Assembly (NCBI GenBank): GCA_015060865.1
Contig: SUXS01000009.1
Coordinates: 62,001 to 126,000 of the forward strand
Direction: 5' to 3'
Source of the DNA: Bacteroidales bacterium
GTDB lineage: Bacteria; Bacteroidota; Bacteroidia; Bacteroidales; Bacteroidaceae
DNA length: 64,000 nt
Shown here piece after piece: positions 8,977-63,990 of this stretch. How positions within the stretch are numbered: position 1 is the stretch's first letter; the number at the start of each line of letters is the position of its first letter. The notes beneath the pieces were generated by a model. The model ran no database searches. It was not told the DNA's origin and saw only the letters and a list, made by a program, of their open reading frames with translations. Made by a program: the position numbers and the translations under genes.

Positions 8977-9389
8977 ATGGAGGAGAAGTCACATTCGTTT
9001 AAGCAACTGAATGCTTATATAAAGGCGAAAGAACTTGTTATAGACATTTATGGTGTTATAAAGATGTTTCCATAGAGGAACGTTATGCGTTAGCTGATCA
9101 ATTGCGTAGAGCAGTTATATCTGTCCCTTCTAACATCGTTGAGGGTATGAACAGAATCTCAGATAAAGAGAAGGCACACTTCCTTGAGATTGCATACGCC
9201 TCACTGATGGAAGTCTATTGTCAGTTAGATATAGCAACAGAGTTAGGTTATATTGATACGGAGAAGAATAAAGAACTGGAGCAGTCTATAAATACCGTTG
9301 CGAAGTTAATCTCAGGTCTCAGACGTTCCACTATAAGCCCTAAACAAGAAAGCAACACTTCGGGTAGAACTCTAAACACTAAACCTTAA
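8977..9389 (+). pseudogene. Frameshifted four-helix-bundle protein (S23/IVP-like)
   Basis: A first frame from ATG 8977 reads MEEKSHSFKQLNAYIKAKE and stops at the TAG at 9073. The continuation lies one frame over from 9072 (IEERYALADQLRRAVISV, then PSNIVEGMNRIS). Together they give the S23 ribosomal-protein/intervening-sequence four-helix family pattern (xFPxEERYxLxxQxRRAxxSxPSNIxEG). One base is missing at about 9070-9073. The last residues (SGRTLNTKP) come from the flanking repeat. The gene sits between an MBOAT and its likely SGNH partner and is bracketed by TTTAGAG-type repeats, as expected for an insertion. It has no link to polysaccharide synthesis. Distinguishing a real mutation from a sequencing error needs read data. 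Confidence 0.75.
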
Positions 9390-52680: not shown

Positions 52681-52709
52681 ACACGTATTTCAATAATAAT
52701 TTTTTGGCG

Positions 52710-55319
52710 ATGAAAAAGATTTTCAGATGTCTGTTGCTTGCCATAGGGCTGTCAACATCAGGCAATGCCTCAGCACAAACCATTGAACAGGCATCAGCCC
52801 GGCATCAACAGTTCAATCTGCTGAGGGCACAAGGAGCTGACGATACGGAGATATACTCCGCACTCCATCAATGTTATAATGATTATGTAGCCGTACTGAA
52901 TGCTTCTACTGCGAACGGTGCTGCCTATATGCAAGCTCAGAAAGGCTTACTTGAAATTCATCCGTTTCTACGCAATGGAGCTGCCTATTTCTCCAGTCGC
53001 GGAGTACAGCAGAATGCCTTGATCTTTGCTCAGGCATATATGGATGTGCCTTTGATGGAAGCTTTCAAGCACACGACATTCGTTAAGGATGAGCAGTTTG
53101 TCACGATGGCCTATTTCGCTGCTGCGGGCACTTTCAATATTCGCGACTATGAGAAAGCCATCAACTATTTTAGGGTTTATTTGAGTACCGGTGACCAAAA
53201 AAATAGGCAGAATGTATATGCCTATATGGCAAAGGCATGTATGAATCTCAAGAAGTACGAACTGGCAAAATCCGTTTTGGATGAAGCCATAACACAATAC
53301 CCCTCAGACTTCAATATGCTTTCTATGGCCATCAACACATGCATAGAGCAGGAGGATAATGTAAACCTTCAACGTTATGTTACCCGGGCACTTGAGATAA
53401 AACCCTACGATGAGACGTTGCTCAATATTCAAGGTAAGCTCTACGAAGACACGCAGGAGTTCCAGAAAGCGTTGGTCATATATAAAAAGATGAAAGAACG
53501 GAAACCGAATAGCCTGAATATCATGCAGCATATTGCTCTCAATTATTACAATCTCGGTGTGTTGTACTACAATAAGGCCAGTATGGAGACTGAAGAGAGG
53601 AGTGCCAAGAAATATTCGAGCCAGTCCGGTGAGTATTTTAAGGAGGCCGCTATATGTCTGGAGACCATTGTGGCCAATAGTCCCAACTCTGTCAAGTATA
53701 TGCAAGCCCTGGCCATTGCTTATGACTGTATGGGCAATGACAGTGGTTTTGAGACGGTCAATGGTAAACTGGCGGGTATAGGTGCACAGACCGTAGCAGC
53801 CAACTCTACTCCTACTTTGATAACCCATTCGTCGAAAAGCAGTACGGCAACGTCGCTTGGCAGCGCGGCAGCATCGTCCTATACTGCTGCTTCCAGCGTT
53901 ACACAGCCAACCCCCTCACAGTCTGTGCCCTTGGGCCAGCAAGTACAGGCAACAGACGAAGTACCCCTTTATTCAGCCTATGCCAAGGAGTATGTAGAGA
54001 AGCGTATCAAGACCTGGCAAGCCAAAGACCCTTACGAGACTATTGCAGAGTATCAGGCACGTGTCACCGAGCAGAATCGTGACATCAAGGTGAAAGAACT
54101 GCTCAAGAGTGCTGAGTCAGAATATATCAAGACCTATACACAGCGTGTTCGTATCAATGACTTGCAGCTCAAGCCATACGACGCCGAGCATGAGGTGTTC
54201 CTGGTGGAGTCAAAGTACGGCGACTTCATTGTGCCCGTTCCTCGTGACAATAATGAAGCACGTATTTTTGAGAGCAGTTGGAATGGCATGCAATGCAAGG
54301 ATCCTCAGTTTTATATCAACAATGACAAGCTCACCCTAGCGAGTCTGACCTTCGTCACTCCCACTGGAAACAGTTACCGTTACGATGCCAATAAGGAGCT
54401 GAACTATACCGAAACGGTCGTGGATGTGTCGTTTGACCCCATCAACAGCGAACTCATAGCTACCAATACGGCAACATCGAACACGTCAGGTGCAAAAATC
54501 AGTCGCCAGTCGGTCAAGGTGGGAGCGGTCAAGTCTGATGTAGATGTCAACATCCCGGAGAGCAAGACCAAGCGCGACAACCTCTATGCCCTTATCATTG
54601 CCAATGAAAACTACAATATGGTGTCTGGGGTGCCTTTTGCCTTGAATGACGGGGAGATGTTTGCACAATACTGCGAGAAGACATTGGGGCTCCCTGAGAA
54701 AAACGTACTCCTCTATAAAGATGCATCGTACGGTATCATGCTCAATGCCATGGACAAGGTGAAAAAGCTGGCGGCTGCTCGCGGTGGTGATATGGAGCTC
54801 ATCTTCTACTATGCGGGACACGGCATTCCTGATGAGTCCAGCAAAGACGCCTTCTTGCTTCCTGTCGACTCTGACGGCAAGCAGACCAAGGTATGCTATT
54901 CGCTCGGTGAGATATATCGCGAGTTGGGAGCATTGGACACACGCGGTGTCACCGTATTCCTTGATGCCTGTTTCAGTGGCGCCAAGCGCGATGGAGGTAT
55001 GGTGGCAGAGGCTCGTGGCGTGGCCATAAAACCCAAACCTACAGCCCCTAAAGGCAATATGGTCGTGTTCAGTGCCGTATCTGATGACGAGACTGCGCTT
55101 CCCTACGAGGAGAAGGGGCATGGCATGTTTACCTACTTCCTGCTGAAGAAGTTACAGGAGACCAAGGGCAATGTCACATTGAAGGACCTGGGCGATTATC
55201 TCAAGCAAAAGGTGATGAGCGAGTCTATCCTTGTCAACGACAAGTCGCAGACCCCCACTGTAACCGCTTCCGATGCAGCAAACACCGATTGGCACAAGAA
55301 GAAGCTCTACAGTTTATAA
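52710..55319 (+). CDS. Exported TPR-caspase (peptidase C14 family)
   Basis: The start is ATG 52710 (MKKIFRCLLLAIG), with a TTG two codons earlier as alternative; 869 residues. The signal peptide ends near NASAQT. Residues ~100-360 are TPR-like repeats (YEKAINYFRVYLSTGD, YELAKSVLDEAITQYP, FQKALVIYKKMKERKP). After a Ser/Thr/Ala-rich linker comes the shared module (YETIAEYQARVTEQNRD, KYGDFIVPVPRD, NNDKLTLASLTFV). The C-terminal caspase domain starts at about 621 (NLYALIIANENYN) with the dyad H704 in YYAGHGIPDE and C754 in FLDACFSGAK. It is a protease with metacaspase-like chemistry placed outside the cytoplasm; its substrate is unknown. Confidence 0.88.
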   Translation: MKKIFRCLLLAIGLSTSGNASAQTIEQASARHQQFNLLRAQGADDTEIYSALHQCYNDYVAVLNASTANGAAYMQAQKGLLEIHPFLRNGAAYFSSRGVQQNALIFAQAYMDVPLMEAFKHTTFVKDEQFVTMAYFAAAGTFNIRDYEKAINYFRVYLSTGDQKNRQNVYAYMAKACMNLKKYELAKSVLDEAITQYPSDFNMLSMAINTCIEQEDNVNLQRYVTRALEIKPYDETLLNIQGKLYEDTQEFQKALVIYKKMKERKPNSLNIMQHIALNYYNLGVLYYNKASMETEERSAKKYSSQSGEYFKEAAICLETIVANSPNSVKYMQALAIAYDCMGNDSGFETVNGKLAGIGAQTVAANSTPTLITHSSKSSTATSLGSAAASSYTAASSVTQPTPSQSVPLGQQVQATDEVPLYSAYAKEYVEKRIKTWQAKDPYETIAEYQARVTEQNRDIKVKELLKSAESEYIKTYTQRVRINDLQLKPYDAEHEVFLVESKYGDFIVPVPRDNNEARIFESSWNGMQCKDPQFYINNDKLTLASLTFVTPTGNSYRYDANKELNYTETVVDVSFDPINSELIATNTATSNTSGAKISRQSVKVGAVKSDVDVNIPESKTKRDNLYALIIANENYNMVSGVPFALNDGEMFAQYCEKTLGLPEKNVLLYKDASYGIMLNAMDKVKKLAAARGGDMELIFYYAGHGIPDESSKDAFLLPVDSDGKQTKVCYSLGEIYRELGALDTRGVTVFLDACFSGAKRDGGMVAEARGVAIKPKPTAPKGNMVVFSAVSDDETALPYEEKGHGMFTYFLLKKLQETKGNVTLKDLGDYLKQKVMSESILVNDKSQTPTVTASDAANTDWHKKKLYSL

Positions 55320-56206: not shown

Positions 56207-58114
56207 ATGAAAAAACATATATATACTATAGCATTGTCACTTCTCACGGCAGTGATAATGGTTGGCTGTCAAGAGGATTATAACCCTGTAGACAATATCC
56301 CCGTTGTAGAAACCTCTGCAGCCGAAAATGTTTGGGCTACCAAAGCGACTTTGTGTGGCGTCATAACAAAAGAGGCGTATGATGATTTCAATTTTTCATA
56401 TTTTGAAGAACAAGCTCCGCACTACTTTTTCCTGTTGTCAGAGCATAAGGATTTGACTGATTCTACACGCATAGAGGCTCGTCGTGACTCCGACACTTGT
56501 TATGCTGAGGTCTCTGGATTGACTCCGGCTACTACCTACTATTATGCCTTGTGCGTAGCCAATGACTACTCTATGGTGATGGGAGAGGTACAGTCGCTCA
56601 CGACGGAAAAAAACACTATCATAGAGGTTACGACCTTTGGGATGGTGATGGAGGCCGTTAAAGAGGACCGTGCACCATTGGATGGCTCGTTTAAGGCGGA
56701 AACTGATTGTGAAGCCTTCTTCCTCTTGTCCGAAACACCCACGTTTGAGAATAGTAGGAAGATTCCCGCAAATGTTAACAATGGCAACTGTAGCGCATGG
56801 GCCGAAGGCTTGACTCAAGGTACGACCTATTATTATAAACTCTCTGTCTTTGACCAATACAATAATACCATGGAAGGTGAGGTGCAATCCTTTACTACCA
56901 AGGAAGAGGTTATTGTAGAAATCACCCTTGACCAAATTACACCGGGGCAACTTGTCGACTTGGGCTTAAGTGTTATGTGGGCTGGATGGAATGTAGGGGC
57001 TACATCACCCGAAGGGCTCGGTGGTTACTATGCTTGGGGAGAAATCGAGGAAAAAGATGATTATTTTGAAAAATCATATTTGTATTATGATATAGATGGA
57101 GATTCGTATGTGAATATTGGTAAAGATATTACTGGCTCTGAATATGATGTCGCCCATATGTTGTGGGGTGATGATTGGCGTATGCCAACTTTGGCTGAGG
57201 CAGAGGAACTTGTAAAGAATTGCACTTTCCAGTGGGCATCATTGGAGGGTACGAAGGGATGTCACATTATAGGTCCTAATGGTAATAGTATTTTCTTGCC
57301 TGCTGCAGGTCGTAAGTCTGACACAGAATTAAGAGATTATGGGTCTCAAGGATTCTATTGGATAGGTGAACTGTCTGGTGGCTATAGTCCTGGTGGACAT
57401 TATTTGTATTGTGCCGAAGGTGCATTTGGAAAAGCGAGCGGTCTTGCTCGCTATTGCGGATTCTCTATCCGTCCAGTCAAGAATCCTAAAGAAAACGAGG
57501 TTGTTGTTGCCGAGGCTATAGATCTTGGTTTGAGTGTGAAATGGGCCAGTCATAATGTGGGGGCTACTGCTCCTGAAGAGTATGGAAAATTCTATGCTTG
57601 GGGAGAAACAGAAAAGAAGCATGATTACACCGAAGACACCTACCTTTACTATCAGAATGGCGCATACGTGGAAATTGGTGAGGATATTAGTGGTACTGAA
57701 TATGATGTTGCCCATGTACAGTGGGGGGGAAGTTGGCGTATGCCTTCTAACGATGAATTTGAAGAACTCTTCGAACAGTGCTCTTGGAAGTGGACTTCTG
57801 TGAACGATATTAATGGCTATGAACTGACTGGTCCTAATGGTAATAGTATTTTTCTTCCAGCTGCAGGGGAACGTAATGGTCCTAATGTAAATAATCGCAA
57901 TGTACGTGGGTACTATTGGACAGCATCATCGTATCATGAAAAACAAGATGCTAGAGAACTGTATTTTATGGAAAGTGGCTGGAATACATGGCGTAGCAGC
58001 CGTACACGTGGTTATTCCGTTCGCCCTGTTTATGACGCCAAAGACAATAATAGTGATGTAGATTTGGATGGCTATCCCGAGGATGAGAATTGGGATGCAC
58101 GTAGGCGGAGATGA
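56207..58114 (+). CDS. Surface lipoprotein with two FN3-like and two FISUMP domains
   Basis: This 635-residue protein has a lipoprotein signal (LLTAVIMVGC) followed by QED, an acidic stretch like the Bacteroidetes surface-export signal. Two fibronectin-III-like repeats (about 35-240; GLTPATTYYYALCVAND and GLTQGTTYYYKLSVFDQ) precede two FISUMP domains (Fib_succ_major; about 246-425 and 437-605). Each begins DLGLSV(M/K)WA...NVGAT and ends (G)(F/Y)S(I/V)RPV. FISUMP domains have a C-type-lectin-like fold and occur in adhesins. Their DNA here is ordinary in GC content (about 37% at 57841-57900), unlike the next gene. Probably a ligand-binding surface protein. Confidence 0.8.
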   Translation: MKKHIYTIALSLLTAVIMVGCQEDYNPVDNIPVVETSAAENVWATKATLCGVITKEAYDDFNFSYFEEQAPHYFFLLSEHKDLTDSTRIEARRDSDTCYAEVSGLTPATTYYYALCVANDYSMVMGEVQSLTTEKNTIIEVTTFGMVMEAVKEDRAPLDGSFKAETDCEAFFLLSETPTFENSRKIPANVNNGNCSAWAEGLTQGTTYYYKLSVFDQYNNTMEGEVQSFTTKEEVIVEITLDQITPGQLVDLGLSVMWAGWNVGATSPEGLGGYYAWGEIEEKDDYFEKSYLYYDIDGDSYVNIGKDITGSEYDVAHMLWGDDWRMPTLAEAEELVKNCTFQWASLEGTKGCHIIGPNGNSIFLPAAGRKSDTELRDYGSQGFYWIGELSGGYSPGGHYLYCAEGAFGKASGLARYCGFSIRPVKNPKENEVVVAEAIDLGLSVKWASHNVGATAPEEYGKFYAWGETEKKHDYTEDTYLYYQNGAYVEIGEDISGTEYDVAHVQWGGSWRMPSNDEFEELFEQCSWKWTSVNDINGYELTGPNGNSIFLPAAGERNGPNVNNRNVRGYYWTASSYHEKQDARELYFMESGWNTWRSSRTRGYSVRPVYDAKDNNSDVDLDGYPEDENWDARRRR

Positions 58115-58142: not shown

Positions 58143-59984
58143 ATGAAAATGAAAAGAATCTTTACAATCTGTATAGTAGCAGTAGCTTGTCTGGTAGCTA
58201 CGCTCTGTAATTCTTGTTCTGTAGAGGAACCAATCTCTACAGATGGTTACACCTATACGATGCGGGTTGATGCCGTATTGAATGGTTTTGATGGTTCTGC
58301 TACACGCTCGGCCTATGATTGGCCCGATGGCGCGAAGCTGTATGTGCAGTTTCACGAGGGGGGAAATCGGGTACAAGGCTTTGCAGAATACAGCGAGTCC
58401 AATGATTGGTGGACGGTGACTACACGCACAGGACTAAGCAATGTGGGTAGCGGCACATGTGAGGCATACTACTTCGAGCATTCAGCAGAGTTTGTCGATG
58501 TGGTGGAGTTGTCCGCAAACGTACCTGTATATCAGGATGTGGCTGGCAGCTATATCTGTGATGGCAATGGTTTGGCTGTGTCACTCGTTCTTACTCCACG
58601 TACGGGACGTATCAGATTCTGTGGTGAGGGGGGGCGTGTGTTCACCGTTTCGGGACTCACTCATCTGTCTGCATATGAGGTTTCGTCCAACAATTTTAGT
58701 TCAACCTCCAAATCCCTGTCACTCACGGTATCTGAGGATGGCTATACTCCTTATCTCTATGCCAGCTTTCCCGAGGCATCGCGTACCCTGACCATTATTG
58801 ATGGTGATATGAAGTACACGCGTGAGTGCACGGAAGCGGTGCTCTTGTCTGGACGAAGCGGTAGCATGACCCTTCCCTCAGCCTCCAGTCATGATGGATG
58901 GGTGATGGAGGAAATCAATCAAATTGATGAGTCTGCCGTAGCCGAAGCCATAGACCTTGGCCTCAGTGTAGAATGGGCAAGCTGGAATGTGGGTGCCACT
59001 GCTCCCGAGGAGTATGGTGGCTACTATGCTTGGGGTGAGACTGAAATGAAGAGTGGTGATGACTATGAAAACTTGGATATAGGTTCAGACATCAGTGGCA
59101 CCGAATACGATGTGGCTCACGTCAAGTGGGGCGATGGTTGGCGTATGCCTACTTTAGAAGAATTTAGGGAACTCGCCACTGGATGCTCTTGGGAATGGAC
59201 ATCGGTTAATAATGTTTATGGGTTGAAGGGTACTGGGCCCAATGGAAACTTTATCTTTCTTCCAGGGTTTCGTGAATCGGGTGGTTGCTACTGGTCTAGC
59301 ACGCTATTCGAGAGCTTCAGTTCCTACGCGCACCATTTCTGCTTCAATAGCGGCGTAGATGGTGGATACTTTGATGTCTTCAGCCGTGCCAGTGGCTACG
59401 CTATCCGTCCAGTCAGAAACAAGGAACCTAAGCCTGAACCTGTTGTTGCCGAGGCTATAGACCTTGGTCTCAGTGTGAAATGGGCAAGCTGGAATGTAGG
59501 CGCTACAGCTCCAGAGGAGTATGGTGACTATTTCGCTTGGGGTGAGACGGAAGTCAAGGATGATTACTCTGAAGACACCTATCTCTATTATCAGAATGGC
59601 GTATACGTGGATCTCGGTGCAGACATCAGTGGCACCGAATACGATGTGGCACACGTCAAGTGGGGCGATAAATGGCGTATGCCTACTCTAGATGAAATCC
59701 TAGAACTCTGCTACAATTGCTCTTGGAATTGGACTACTCAAAACGGTGTCAACGGCTATAAGGTTACTGGCCCGAATGGTAACTCTATCTTTCTTCCCGC
59801 TGCGGGCTACCGCATCGGCACGGAGGTCTACTACCGTGGCTCGGACGGCTCCTACTGGTCTGGCGCGCTGGTCGAGAACGACAGCGGCGACGCGTACAGC
59901 CTCTACTTCGACAGTGGCCACTGGGGCTGGCTCAACTACGGCTACCGCAACCTCGGCTTCACCGTCCGCCCCGTCACAAACTAA
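58143..59984 (+). CDS. Lipoprotein with two FISUMP domains and a DGR-like hypervariable C-terminus
   Basis: This 613-residue protein has a lipoprotein signal ending LCNSC followed by SVEEP. Residues ~35-255 resemble fimbrillin-type domains of Bacteroidales (YTYTMRVDAVLNGFDGSATR, then SVLVLTPRTGRIRF-like strands). Two FISUMP domains follow (about 266-427 and 435-613). The second ends in a stretch (residues ~550-612) whose DNA is 63-67% GC and whose codons are almost all NNC, replaced at positions where related FISUMP ends carry Asn or other polar residues. This is the signature of a diversity-generating retroelement target. No reverse transcriptase or template repeat is in this window, so mutagenesis would act from elsewhere. 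Confidence 0.8.
   Translation: MKMKRIFTICIVAVACLVATLCNSCSVEEPISTDGYTYTMRVDAVLNGFDGSATRSAYDWPDGAKLYVQFHEGGNRVQGFAEYSESNDWWTVTTRTGLSNVGSGTCEAYYFEHSAEFVDVVELSANVPVYQDVAGSYICDGNGLAVSLVLTPRTGRIRFCGEGGRVFTVSGLTHLSAYEVSSNNFSSTSKSLSLTVSEDGYTPYLYASFPEASRTLTIIDGDMKYTRECTEAVLLSGRSGSMTLPSASSHDGWVMEEINQIDESAVAEAIDLGLSVEWASWNVGATAPEEYGGYYAWGETEMKSGDDYENLDIGSDISGTEYDVAHVKWGDGWRMPTLEEFRELATGCSWEWTSVNNVYGLKGTGPNGNFIFLPGFRESGGCYWSSTLFESFSSYAHHFCFNSGVDGGYFDVFSRASGYAIRPVRNKEPKPEPVVAEAIDLGLSVKWASWNVGATAPEEYGDYFAWGETEVKDDYSEDTYLYYQNGVYVDLGADISGTEYDVAHVKWGDKWRMPTLDEILELCYNCSWNWTTQNGVNGYKVTGPNGNSIFLPAAGYRIGTEVYYRGSDGSYWSGALVENDSGDAYSLYFDSGHWGWLNYGYRNLGFTVRPVTN
59790..59984 (+). repeat. Candidate DGR variable region (VR)
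   Basis: About 195 bases at the extreme 3' end of the FISUMP gene are far richer in GC than the rest of the cluster (40/60 and 38/60 G+C in two consecutive 60-base blocks, against 22/60 at 57841-57900). Codons at presumed variable positions are GGC, GTC, GAC, AGC, TAC, CTC, CAC and AAC, which is what adenine mutagenesis of AAC codons produces. The conserved frame reads YWS...GFTVRPV, the usual end of C-type-lectin VRs. Confidence 0.6.
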
Positions 59985-60120
59985 AGCGTAGCGACTATTC
60001 GATTCATTTGATTATTTAATCTATTGAGTTTCGTATAGCGACACCCATTTACTCGAGATTTTCCATTTAATAAACACTTATACAATAATTTTTAGTATTA
60101 ATTCTTAAAGACAAAACGTT

Positions 60121-61760: not shown

Positions 61761-63161
61761 ATGAAACGATTACTTTTATTAAGTACATTATCCCTAATCT
61801 CCTTAGTGGGGATATGTCAAACGAAGAAGATTGATGGTATTCTATATGATATCATATCACCTACAGAGGTGCGGGTAGAAGCTGGAAACGAAAAGGTCTT
61901 TAGGAATATAGTTATTCCTAAATTTGTTAAAATCAATAGGACACAATATCGTGTGACGAGCATTGGATCTGAAGCTTTCGATGGTTGCGAAAACCTCACC
62001 TCCATCACCATCCCCGAGGGCGTGACAAGTATTGGGGTGAATGCCTTCCGTGGCTGCAGCAGCCTCACCTCCATTACCATTCCCGAGGGCGTGACGAGCA
62101 TTGGAGGCTTTGCTTTCGAAGATTGCAGCAGCCTCACCTCCATCACCATTCCCGAGGGTGTGACGAGCATTGGATCTGGAGCCTTCTTTTGCTGCAGCAG
62201 CCTCACCTCCATCACCATTCCCGAGGGCGTGACGAGCATTGAAAGTGACGCTTTCCAGGGTTGCAGCAGCCTCACCTCCATCACCATTCCCGAGGGCGTG
62301 ACAAGTATTGGGGTGAATGCCTTCCGTGTCTGCAGCAGCCTCACCTCCATCAATATACCCAATAGTGTTATAAGTATTGAAAGAAACGCATTTGAGTTCT
62401 GTAAATCGTTACGGAGTATCATTATTCCAAATTCAGTAACATTTATCGGAAGACTAGTTTTTTGGGGTTGTGAGAAACTGGAAACTATAATAGTTCCAGA
62501 CGAATGCAACATTGATATACCGTGGGGGTATGGGTATATGGCCATAAATGGGACAGCTTTTTTGGATTGCGATAATCTGAAATCAGTAAAGGGGCATAAT
62601 ATCATGTATCCTAAATGGATTGTTGAACATTTGTCCTGCCGTAATGATAATTCCATGTATGAATGGGCAAAAAACTATAAAGAGAACTCTTATAACTATT
62701 ACGCCTATGATAGAATAATAGAACTGATGTCCGAATGGCAACAGAAGAAAGAGTTTGAGACGACGGCTCAATGGCAGGCACGAGTAACAGAAGCAACAAG
62801 GGCGGAACACTTGAAGAAGGTGCAGAAGCAAGTGCTCGCAGAATTTATAGAGAAGAAGAGGCCTGCGACACTGGAAGGAAATATCGGCAGTTATGATGCC
62901 GATTATGGAGTATTCCCCATCACAACAGACGATTTGGGTACTTTCTACTTGGAGGTGCCAATGGAAGATGCTTCCAAAGTGAAGGAGCAATGGAGCCAAG
63001 CCAAAGTATTGCCTACATACGGTATTGCAGATGACAAGCTGGCAATAGCAAGTGCTGAAGTAAGCGTAAACGGCAAGACCTACAAGACGGCAGACAGGTA
63101 TGAAAACACAGCTACTGACATAGCCATCAATCTCCCCCCCCCTGCAAATCGATTTGGGTAA
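61761..63161 (+). CDS. BspA-like leucine-rich-repeat protein, N-terminal part of an LRR-caspase
   Basis: The frame is open for 466 residues. After a signal peptide (LLLLSTLSLISLVGICQT) it has LRR_5 (BspA/TpLRR) repeats at residues ~50-270 with the unit LTSITIPEGVTSIG. From ~325 it has the module shared with the WD40 and TPR-caspase proteins (EFETTAQWQARVTEATRAEH, GTFYLEVPMEDASKV, ADDKLAIASAEVSVNGKTY). The frame ends at 63159 just after a C9 tract. With eight C residues the frame continues into the caspase domain beginning at 63154. As it stands the product is a secreted LRR protein without protease domain. Confidence 0.8.
   Translation: MKRLLLLSTLSLISLVGICQTKKIDGILYDIISPTEVRVEAGNEKVFRNIVIPKFVKINRTQYRVTSIGSEAFDGCENLTSITIPEGVTSIGVNAFRGCSSLTSITIPEGVTSIGGFAFEDCSSLTSITIPEGVTSIGSGAFFCCSSLTSITIPEGVTSIESDAFQGCSSLTSITIPEGVTSIGVNAFRVCSSLTSINIPNSVISIERNAFEFCKSLRSIIIPNSVTFIGRLVFWGCEKLETIIVPDECNIDIPWGYGYMAINGTAFLDCDNLKSVKGHNIMYPKWIVEHLSCRNDNSMYEWAKNYKENSYNYYAYDRIIELMSEWQQKKEFETTAQWQARVTEATRAEHLKKVQKQVLAEFIEKKRPATLEGNIGSYDADYGVFPITTDDLGTFYLEVPMEDASKVKEQWSQAKVLPTYGIADDKLAIASAEVSVNGKTYKTADRYENTATDIAINLPPPANRFG
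61995..62408 (+). repeat. Six 69-bp tandem repeats encoding LRRs
   Basis: CTCACCTCCAT recurs at 61995, 62064, 62133, 62202, 62271 and 62340, exactly 69 bases apart (23 residues). Units 1 to 5 are nearly identical in DNA, and the first and fifth share the same variable segment (GGGGTGAATGCCTTCCGT). The sixth diverges after its first 15 bases. Confidence 0.95.
63134..63142 (+). repeat. C9 homopolymer at the LRR/caspase junction
   Basis: Nine C residues follow CT at 63132-63133. Reading from the LRR side gives LPPPANRFG and a stop. With one C fewer the frame becomes NLPPLQIDLGNGNTEHT and continues without interruption into the caspase domain. Confidence 0.88.
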
Positions 63162-63990
63162 CGGCAATACAGAGCACACCAAGCCCGATGTAGCCCAAGC
63201 AATAGATCGAAGCATAGACCAGAACATTCCTGTGGTAACCAACAACAACGACCGCACCTTTGCCGTCATCATCGGCAACGAGAACTACAAGGAGGTGGCC
63301 AAGGTGCCTCATGCGCTGAACGATGCCAAGGTGTTTGCCGCCTATTGTGAAAAGACCTTGGGACTTCCCCGGAAGAACATCAAGCAATATGCGGATGCAA
63401 CATTTGGCACGTTACTGTCTGCCATGGAAAACATACAAAGCATAGCCAAGGCATACAATGGTGACATCAATGTGATATTTTACTATGCAGGGCATGGCAT
63501 ACCTAACGAGGGAAGCAATGAGGCCTATCTGCTGCCTGTAGATGCCAACGGCAGGAACACGGCAGCCTGCTACCCGATAGACAAACTGTATGGCGAGCTG
63601 AAGGCACTCGGAGCCAATCAAGTGACCGTATTCCTTGATGCCTGCTTCAGTGGTGCACAGCGTGGCAACGGCATGTTGGCTTCGGCCCGTGGCGTGGCTA
63701 TCAAGGCCAAGCAGGCTGCACCGCAAGGTAATATGGTGGTGTTCTCGGCCGCCAGTGCCGACGAGACAGCCTATCCGTACAACGAAAAGGGGCATGGACT
63801 CTTCACCTACTATCTACTTAAGAAACTGAACGAGACGAAGGGCGATGTTACCCTGGGCGAACTGGGAAGCTACATCTGTGAGAAGGTAGCCCAGGAATCT
63901 GTCGTAAGCAATGGAAAGAGCCAAACACCTACCGTAGTACCCTCAGTAAGCATTGTTGACAATTGGAAGAACCTAAAACTGACAAAATAA
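63154..63990 (+). CDS. Caspase (peptidase C14) domain, C-terminal part of an LRR-caspase
   Basis: The frame starts with no good initiation signal (TTG 63154) and is best seen as the continuation of the LRR gene after a one-base shift. About 278 residues: a linker (residues 1-34), then the caspase fold from FAVIIGNENYK to the end. The dyad is intact: His in YYAGHGIPNE (codon 63493) and Cys in FLDACFSGAQ (codon 63643), 50 residues apart exactly as in the TPR-caspase. The domain is closely similar to that paralogue. It would be expressed only if the C9 tract changes length or ribosomes slip. An ATG at 63996 begins another gene cut by the window. Confidence 0.82.
   Translation: MGNGNTEHTKPDVAQAIDRSIDQNIPVVTNNNDRTFAVIIGNENYKEVAKVPHALNDAKVFAAYCEKTLGLPRKNIKQYADATFGTLLSAMENIQSIAKAYNGDINVIFYYAGHGIPNEGSNEAYLLPVDANGRNTAACYPIDKLYGELKALGANQVTVFLDACFSGAQRGNGMLASARGVAIKAKQAAPQGNMVVFSAASADETAYPYNEKGHGLFTYYLLKKLNETKGDVTLGELGSYICEKVAQESVVSNGKSQTPTVVPSVSIVDNWKNLKLTK

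Follow-up and report, generated by a model that had tools for sequence, protein, structure and literature searches.

The window, by which we mean the whole 64-kb stretch of DNA that was analyzed (C28:62001-126000), belongs to a draft genome of 3.03 Mb that is split over 36 contigs and is 92% complete. It carries a gene for a 613-aa protein with two FISUMP-like domains, in a cluster with a neighboring FISUMP gene and two genes for caspase-type (Peptidase_C14) proteins (Table 1). The whole 613-aa protein matched the Lcl_C profile (PF07603, DUF1566; E = 4e-12, 46.9 bits versus a cut-off of 34.9), and its N-terminus contains LCNSC, a putative lipobox-like motif as read from the sequence. The second domain by itself reached 27.4 bits with this profile, below the cut-off. 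The TIGR02145 (FISUMP) profile gave no match to the 613-aa protein at 1e-3 and scored 27 bits with the neighboring gene, below its cut-off of 41.65; FISUMP is the name that the original prediction gave to this type of domain and is not backed by a profile for the 613-aa protein.

Table 1. Features of the locus (positions in the window). Alignment A5 has 25 rows, made up of 24 of the 28 domains found and the window domain
Feature	Position	Strand	Evidence or remark
TPR and Peptidase_C14 (caspase) protein of the cluster	52704..55319	+	PF00656 match
Neighboring FISUMP gene; its second domain is the closest upstream paralog and served as internal control	56207..58114	+	C-terminal GC3 0.27, ordinary
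613-aa Lcl_C (FISUMP-like) protein with two FISUMP-like domains, the second ending in the VR	58143..59984	+	Lcl_C, PF07603
C-terminal part of the first FISUMP-like domain, same gene	59265..59415 (approximate)	+	GC3 0.58, intermediate
Second FISUMP-like domain, bears the VR	59448..59981	+	23 of the 25 sequences in alignment A5 have an Lcl_C match
DGR-type variable region (VR)	59802..59978	+	High GC3; common to the C16 and C33 genes; variation mainly at codon positions 1 and 2
IMH-like conserved 3' end of the VR, GGCTTCACCGTCCGCCCCGTCACA	59955..59978	+	Same motif in C16 and C33
Post-VR spacer	59985..60028	+	89% over 45 columns to the flank of G007:C40, E = 6e-12 (BLAST)
Second Peptidase_C14 (caspase) protein of the cluster	63154..63990	+	PF00656 match

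In diversity-generating retroelements (DGRs), the cDNA that the reverse transcriptase (RT) makes from a template carries errors at adenines and takes the place of the variable region (VR), leaving NNC codons. The composition of the 3' end of the 613-aa gene was as originally predicted, with a jump in GC and in C-ending codons over the last ~195 bases. The GC content of positions 59790-59984 was 0.641, versus 0.491 for the rest of the gene. Of the 63,805 sliding 195-nt windows in the 64 kb, 27 reached this value; these were consecutive (starts 59777 to 59803) and lay over this same 3' end. Nowhere else in the window is the GC content of 195 nt as high. GC3 was 0.92 in the last ~62 codons versus 0.48 upstream, and 45 of 61 codons in the 3' end, versus 146 of 552 upstream, ended in C. 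The encoded peptide, YWSGALVENDSG...GFTVRPVTN, likewise showed the anticipated GFTVRPV-type C-terminal pattern. The cassette is 3'-terminal in a gene whose product has a domain known from DGR targets (Lcl_C/DUF1566). The C-terminal part of the first domain of the same protein may be what is left of an earlier VR that has decayed.

Two long BLAST matches to the 3' end lay elsewhere in its own genome, at C16:1704-1968 (77%) and C33:45689-45901 (75%); both are the 3' ends of other genes with FISUMP-like domains. The three cassettes were equal in length (186 nt including the stop codon). Identity to the two sister genes jumped at ~59802 (GCGGGCTACCGC), which we took as the start of the cassette (end, 59978), and identity among the three extended from GCGGGCTACCGC through GGNNTNACCGTNCGCCCCGTCACA. 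A fourth place, on C15, with two mismatches to the conserved end GGNNTNACCGTNCGCCCCGTCACA, was part of a kinase-FISUMP gene with an ordinary C-terminus. On this contig (L110:2163-5201), each of two adjacent kinase-like proteins had a FISUMP-like domain at its C-terminal end, with ordinary GC3 there (0.33 and 0.27).

Between the upstream part of the domain and the cassette, third-position divergence dropped from 0.59 to 0.11 for window/C16 (65 of 110 third positions different upstream, 7 of 59 in the cassette), from 0.57 to 0.21 for window/C33, and from 0.60 to 0.21 for C16/C33, while codon positions 1 and 2 stayed diverse inside the cassette. Codons for the same amino acid in window and C16 were identical in 36 of 74 cases upstream and in 35 of 37 in the cassette; where the amino acids differed, the third base was the same in 8 of 36 and 17 of 22 codons, respectively. 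All 28 pairs among eight such domains of this genome were used as a control, and the collapse was seen only in the three cassette pairs. In the other 25 pairs, third-position divergence was 0.45 to 0.84 in the C-terminal segment, with no fall of more than 0.1 from the upstream value, and the C-terminal GC3 of the five other FISUMP-like domains compared was 0.27 to 0.58. The copies thus combined nonsynonymous diversity with collapsed synonymous divergence, as expected of a VR. The second domain of the neighboring gene (56207-58114) had 87 of 115 upstream residues in common with the window domain but only 21 of 56 in the C-terminal segment, where 3 codons were identical. Since this paralog is close upstream and dissimilar in the C-terminal segment, the cassette looks to have been swapped into the window domain. 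Of note, the window and C16 cassettes also differed by internal codon insertions and deletions, which a single template would not give and which count against the reading that we prefer below. Strong cassette matches were found in four genomes of the genus (G000, G005, G007, and G014).

Loci of relatives were taken as the best 80 of 574 found, mostly from Bacteroidales metagenome-assembled genomes (MAGs), many of these labeled with a herbivore gut site or faeces, and a repeat scan for adenine-biased mismatches covered 138 loci, with those of fewer than 3000 bases left out. In a Bacteroidaceae MAG (L075), a VR (1676-1881) and a template (2756-2961) differed at 24 positions, 22 of them template adenines. 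An RT gene followed the template (PF00078 match, LTSQ and YVDD motifs), and a gene for 181 aa between VR and template matched PF01624 (MutS_I; 22.3 bits versus a cut-off of 20.6); the target scored 27.4 bits with Lcl_C, below the cut-off. Of 13 further loci recruited with an MSL fragment of the window's own genome (see below), six (L166, L168, L169, L171, L172, and L175) held a VR, an MSL-like gene, a template, and a full-length RT, the similarity of their targets being judged from the VR peptides; the MSL-like gene of L169 had no Pfam match. This made seven intact DGR loci with similar VRs. In the six that aligned without gaps (L172, whose template/VR alignment was gapped, was omitted), 130 of 317 template adenine sites were changed versus 7 of 852 other sites, i.e., 130 of the 137 mismatches between template and target were at template adenines.

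As no cognate template was found, the adenine test was run on heterologous templates. With the template of L169 (T169), 38 of 57 adenine columns varied among the three cassettes of the window's genome versus 28 of 123 other columns (odds ratio, 6.8; P = 2.2e-8), and the excess at adenine columns was also found when the majority of the seven templates was used instead (P = 2e-8); G007C40 and V169, which have no recognized frame, stood outside this column test. The rows for G007C57 and G005C12, which had been cut out of frame, were set aside. Together with the Lcl_C (FISUMP-like) target and the intact DGRs with similar targets in relatives, this variation on template-adenine columns supported the predicted DGR-type VR on a FISUMP protein. 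Against this, the window also differed from T169 at 14 of 57 non-adenine third positions, and selection alone could produce variation in these columns if they correspond to exposed positions of the fold. The window and C16 cassettes differed at 13 of 123 T169-non-adenine columns, a much higher rate than the 7 of 852 such template/VR sites in the intact six. A template would hold these positions constant, yet the sister cassettes have drifted there.

We searched for the template and the RT in the window's genome (draft, 92% complete). BLAST of the VR with E values up to 10 did not find a template there: of the 15 matches, three were the VR itself and the C16 and C33 copies, two fell on upstream FISUMP sequence in C28, and the remaining ten were short (15-27 nt), the two best of these being unrelated on inspection. 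The RVT_1 profile, which does detect the RT type of L075 and L169 (46.7 and 45.2 bits versus a cut-off of 29.6), had no match in this draft, and neither had L075- and L169-type RT queries. In other collections, two exact patterns had 0 matches in viral contigs, and no template was found in phage records or, with the C16 cassette as a query, in plasmid records. Thus, the near-copy of the VR beside a DGR RT that had been expected elsewhere in the genome was found in neither of its parts, as far as a 92%-complete draft allows. Since the draft is in 36 contigs and repeats such as template and VR can break assemblies, the lack of RT and template may be no more than a gap in the assembly. The window had been described as free of RT, Avd partner, and template; a DGR RT or a template was indeed not found in the 64 kb, but an Avd-like PF05635 four-helix-bundle gene is present at ~9054-9317. 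With no RT or template nearby, it was rejected as a DGR Avd. PF05635 had four matches in this genome, three of them over the cut-off (C28 at window position ~9054, C14, and C29), and the C14 and C29 genes were rejected as well, there being no RT or template among nearby ORFs.

Throughout the genus, RVT_1 matched 5 of 19 genomes. By eye, the G014 sequence was retron-like, and those of G008 and G012 were not taken as DGRs; the DGRs of G003 and G006 have other targets and were rejected as a source for the cassette. In G003:C90 (L127/L135), with a putative FGE/SUMF1-like target, 93% of 15 template mismatches were at adenines, and in G006:C26 (L129/L138), which lies beside phage-like genes, 90% of 21. 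The L075 RT as a query matched G003, G006, and G012 only. At an E value of ≤1e-30, an L169/L075-type DGR RT was found in 22 of 399 genomes of the family, with none of the 19 genus genomes among them, and all four genomes with strong cassette matches (G000, G005, G007, and G014) were without this type. A survey of 17 genomes (16 with an MSL match, and G005) found the RT full length in 6, truncated or broken in 2, as weak matches only in 2, and not at all in 7. In G187, a 5' part of MSL ran straight into what matched the C-terminal portion of an RT (residues 212-367); in G224, the RT was in pieces with a stop.

Behind the C16 cassette, a 64-aa ORF matched the first ~60 residues of the MSL-like gene. 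Its PF01624 score (16.4 bits, E = 0.011) was below the cut-off of 20.6, and the label MSL rests on this match and on that of the L075 gene. Like fragments were present in G007 (97%) and G014 (95%), and in each of them the similarity ended at about residue 57-60. The next long ORF on C16 begins at 2622, which leaves no room for a template and an RT behind the cassette. No MSL gene was found beside the target gene of the window. In another genome (G211; 3 contigs, 99% complete), an MSL-like gene and four VR-like ends, with a GC content of only 0.49 to 0.53, lay within 15 kb (L167), and no match to the DGR RT was found in that genome; this locus is a candidate for a further relic.

The spacer following the window VR aligned with sequence flanking G007:C40, a DGR-derived locus of a different species, and the homology reached ~45 nt past the stop codon and ended before the stem-loops present there. 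Folding of the sequence after the window VR yielded a z score of 0.06, nothing beyond chance, and the inverted repeats of the intact loci were not found in the 64-kb window. In the seven intact loci, z scores of the post-VR stem-loop were -2.55 to -9.56; the spacer plus inverted repeats followed the VR in these seven, in C33 (z = -4.25), in the three copies of G007, and in G187, with z scores of -2.11 to -9.56 overall. Scores were weak in C16 (-1.60), G014 (-1.16), and G005 (-0.89) because the folded segments contain another, inserted repeat and stop ahead of the common hairpin region or just inside it; in C16, a CCCGC...GCGGG repeat lies further on, at L096:2106. Used as a pattern, the consensus spacer had 0 matches in the window's genome, where as many as 3 mismatches were allowed, and 0 in the window; because of a deletion in C16 and the diverged window copy, this pattern was too strict to inform, and BLAST was used in its place.

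Two further observations concern these flanks. An imperfect inverted repeat of ~60 nt (TAATGCCA...TGGCATTA) lay between the stop codon and the common post-VR flank in three species (L096:1966-2030, L131, and L134) and was absent from the other copies aligned; it is perhaps a small inserted element. A succession of spacer, variable hairpin, and second small CCCGC/CCGGC hairpin recurred in the post-VR flanks of L166, L168, L175, L164, L146, and L096, in several genera. In the DGR of a Bordetella phage, an inverted repeat just 3' of the IMH is described as helping retrohoming (PMC12875486). By analogy with that role, the window copy, which has no stem-loop, would be a poor target for retrohoming.

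Taken together, the 3' end of the gene is probably a real DGR variable region, now stranded without template and RT. The evidence for an origin of the cassette from a DGR is strong. Present DGR activity at the window gene, and with it the predicted diversification in trans, is not supported, given that no RT or template was found in the assembly, the accessory gene is truncated, the sister cassettes have drifted at template-non-adenine columns, and the downstream stem-loop is missing at the window copy. The VR would have been written in the past by a DGR of the relatives' type, consisting of a target with a VR, an MSL-like gene, a template, and an RT. C16 may be the former target in cis, and the window and C33 genes either remote targets or recipients of cassette and flank by recombination. 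RT and template would since have been lost, and the domain would now be a frozen, slowly drifting ligand-binding variant, for which its family suggests a role in binding at the surface.

An intact RT and template, unassembled or on an unbinned mobile element, might still diversify the window gene, C16, and C33 in trans. We regard this as unlikely and retain it because the draft state of the genome, only 92% complete, leaves room for an unassembled RT; multitarget DGRs with remote VRs have been described (PMC7517822; PMC4891356), and 35 of 37 same-amino-acid codons of window and C16 are still identical. However, an RT of this type is absent from all four genus genomes with strong cassette matches and from all 19 genus genomes, the MSL gene is truncated at C16, G007, and G014, window and C16 differ at the 13 of 123 columns mentioned, and the window copy is without the post-VR stem-loop. 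It is very improbable that no retroelement was involved and that the cassette spread by gene conversion or horizontal transfer and was diversified by point mutation under strong positive selection. Homology that runs on for ~45 nt after the stop codon, farther than simple retrohoming would take it, and the indels between copies fit such a course, but point mutation and selection would not readily keep C at third positions while positions 1 and 2 change, the variable columns match the template adenines of real DGRs, and a fragment of the gene that is sited between target and template in intact DGRs adjoins one copy. An ordinary conserved FISUMP C-terminus with a local fluctuation in GC is scarcely credible and already contradicted, for although FISUMP domains are abundant and their C-termini widely variable in relatives, the five other domains had GC3 of 0.27 to 0.58 and no pair with a third-position collapse.

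The neighboring caspases had been put forward as a striking pairing with a hypervariable ligand binder. Of 80 FISUMP loci (the best 80 of 574 relatives), one had a caspase relative in its flanks, which is too little to call a system. In that locus, from a Paludibacteraceae genome (L095:8435-14023) and taken as a lead only, a three-domain FISUMP gene is followed 18 nt later by a 558-aa ORF, the caspase part of which is ~58% identical to the second caspase of the window. That a remote multitarget DGR outside the assembled chromosome, on a mobile element or an unbinned replicon, still rewrites the putative lipoprotein amid the exported caspases, and that hypervariable ligand sensing feeds extracytoplasmic caspases, seems very improbable to us; if true, the pair in L095 would count as a second, independent instance.

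The probably stranded VR suggests that variable domains made by DGRs can outlive their machinery, here with a cassette that has spread to three genes of one genome and to three other species of the genus (G005, G007, and G014). Orphan VRs would also be recognizable without their template, by third-position collapse, by the adenines of heterologous templates, and by a conserved post-VR flank, and surveys that begin with the RT would miss orphan VRs of this kind. Should an RT turn up, these data would instead be those of a DGR with a remote target in a caspase cluster.

No literature joining diversity-generating retroelement, variable region, and FISUMP was found. DUF1566 or Fib_succ_major DGR targets, including an Mfa2 plus Fib_succ_major lipoprotein, were described in bacteria of the human microbiome in 2014 (PMC4159848), and DUF1566 targets again in 2019 (PMC6642488). 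The window gene resembles the targets described there in its domain family, its 3'-terminal VR, its putative lipoprotein nature, and its probably adenine-driven variation, with the difference that those targets were found as parts of DGR systems, whereas neither template nor RT was found in the window's genome. MSL (PF01624, MutS_I) is reported as a DGR accessory (PMC10053308); compared with that description, the 181-aa gene of L075 is just over the PF01624 cut-off, and the window's genome has just a 64-codon 5' fragment that scores below it. In cyanobacteria, DGRs with remote targets and variable proteins with orthocaspase domains were described in 2020 (PMC7517822), and DGR-diversified conflict systems are described for multicellular bacteria (PMC10907252). 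These systems, with C-type-lectin-like variable domains, and the window, with a putative one, share a caspase context; in the cyanobacterial proteins as presented, however, the caspase-like domain is inside the variable protein (PMC7517822), whereas in the window the caspases are separate genes of the cluster, with a weak linkage (1 of 80 loci). Isolates of Treponema denticola without RT and template keep leftover or remote DGR targets, which were read as remnants in 2016 (PMC4891356). There, as here, VR-bearing targets persist without the core cassette; by that account, the target is another one and the accessory is HRDC, whereas the window's genome has an MSL-like fragment. Both the kind of target and the kind of RT-less leftover are thus known; the window's genome adds a case with an unusually clear fossil record.
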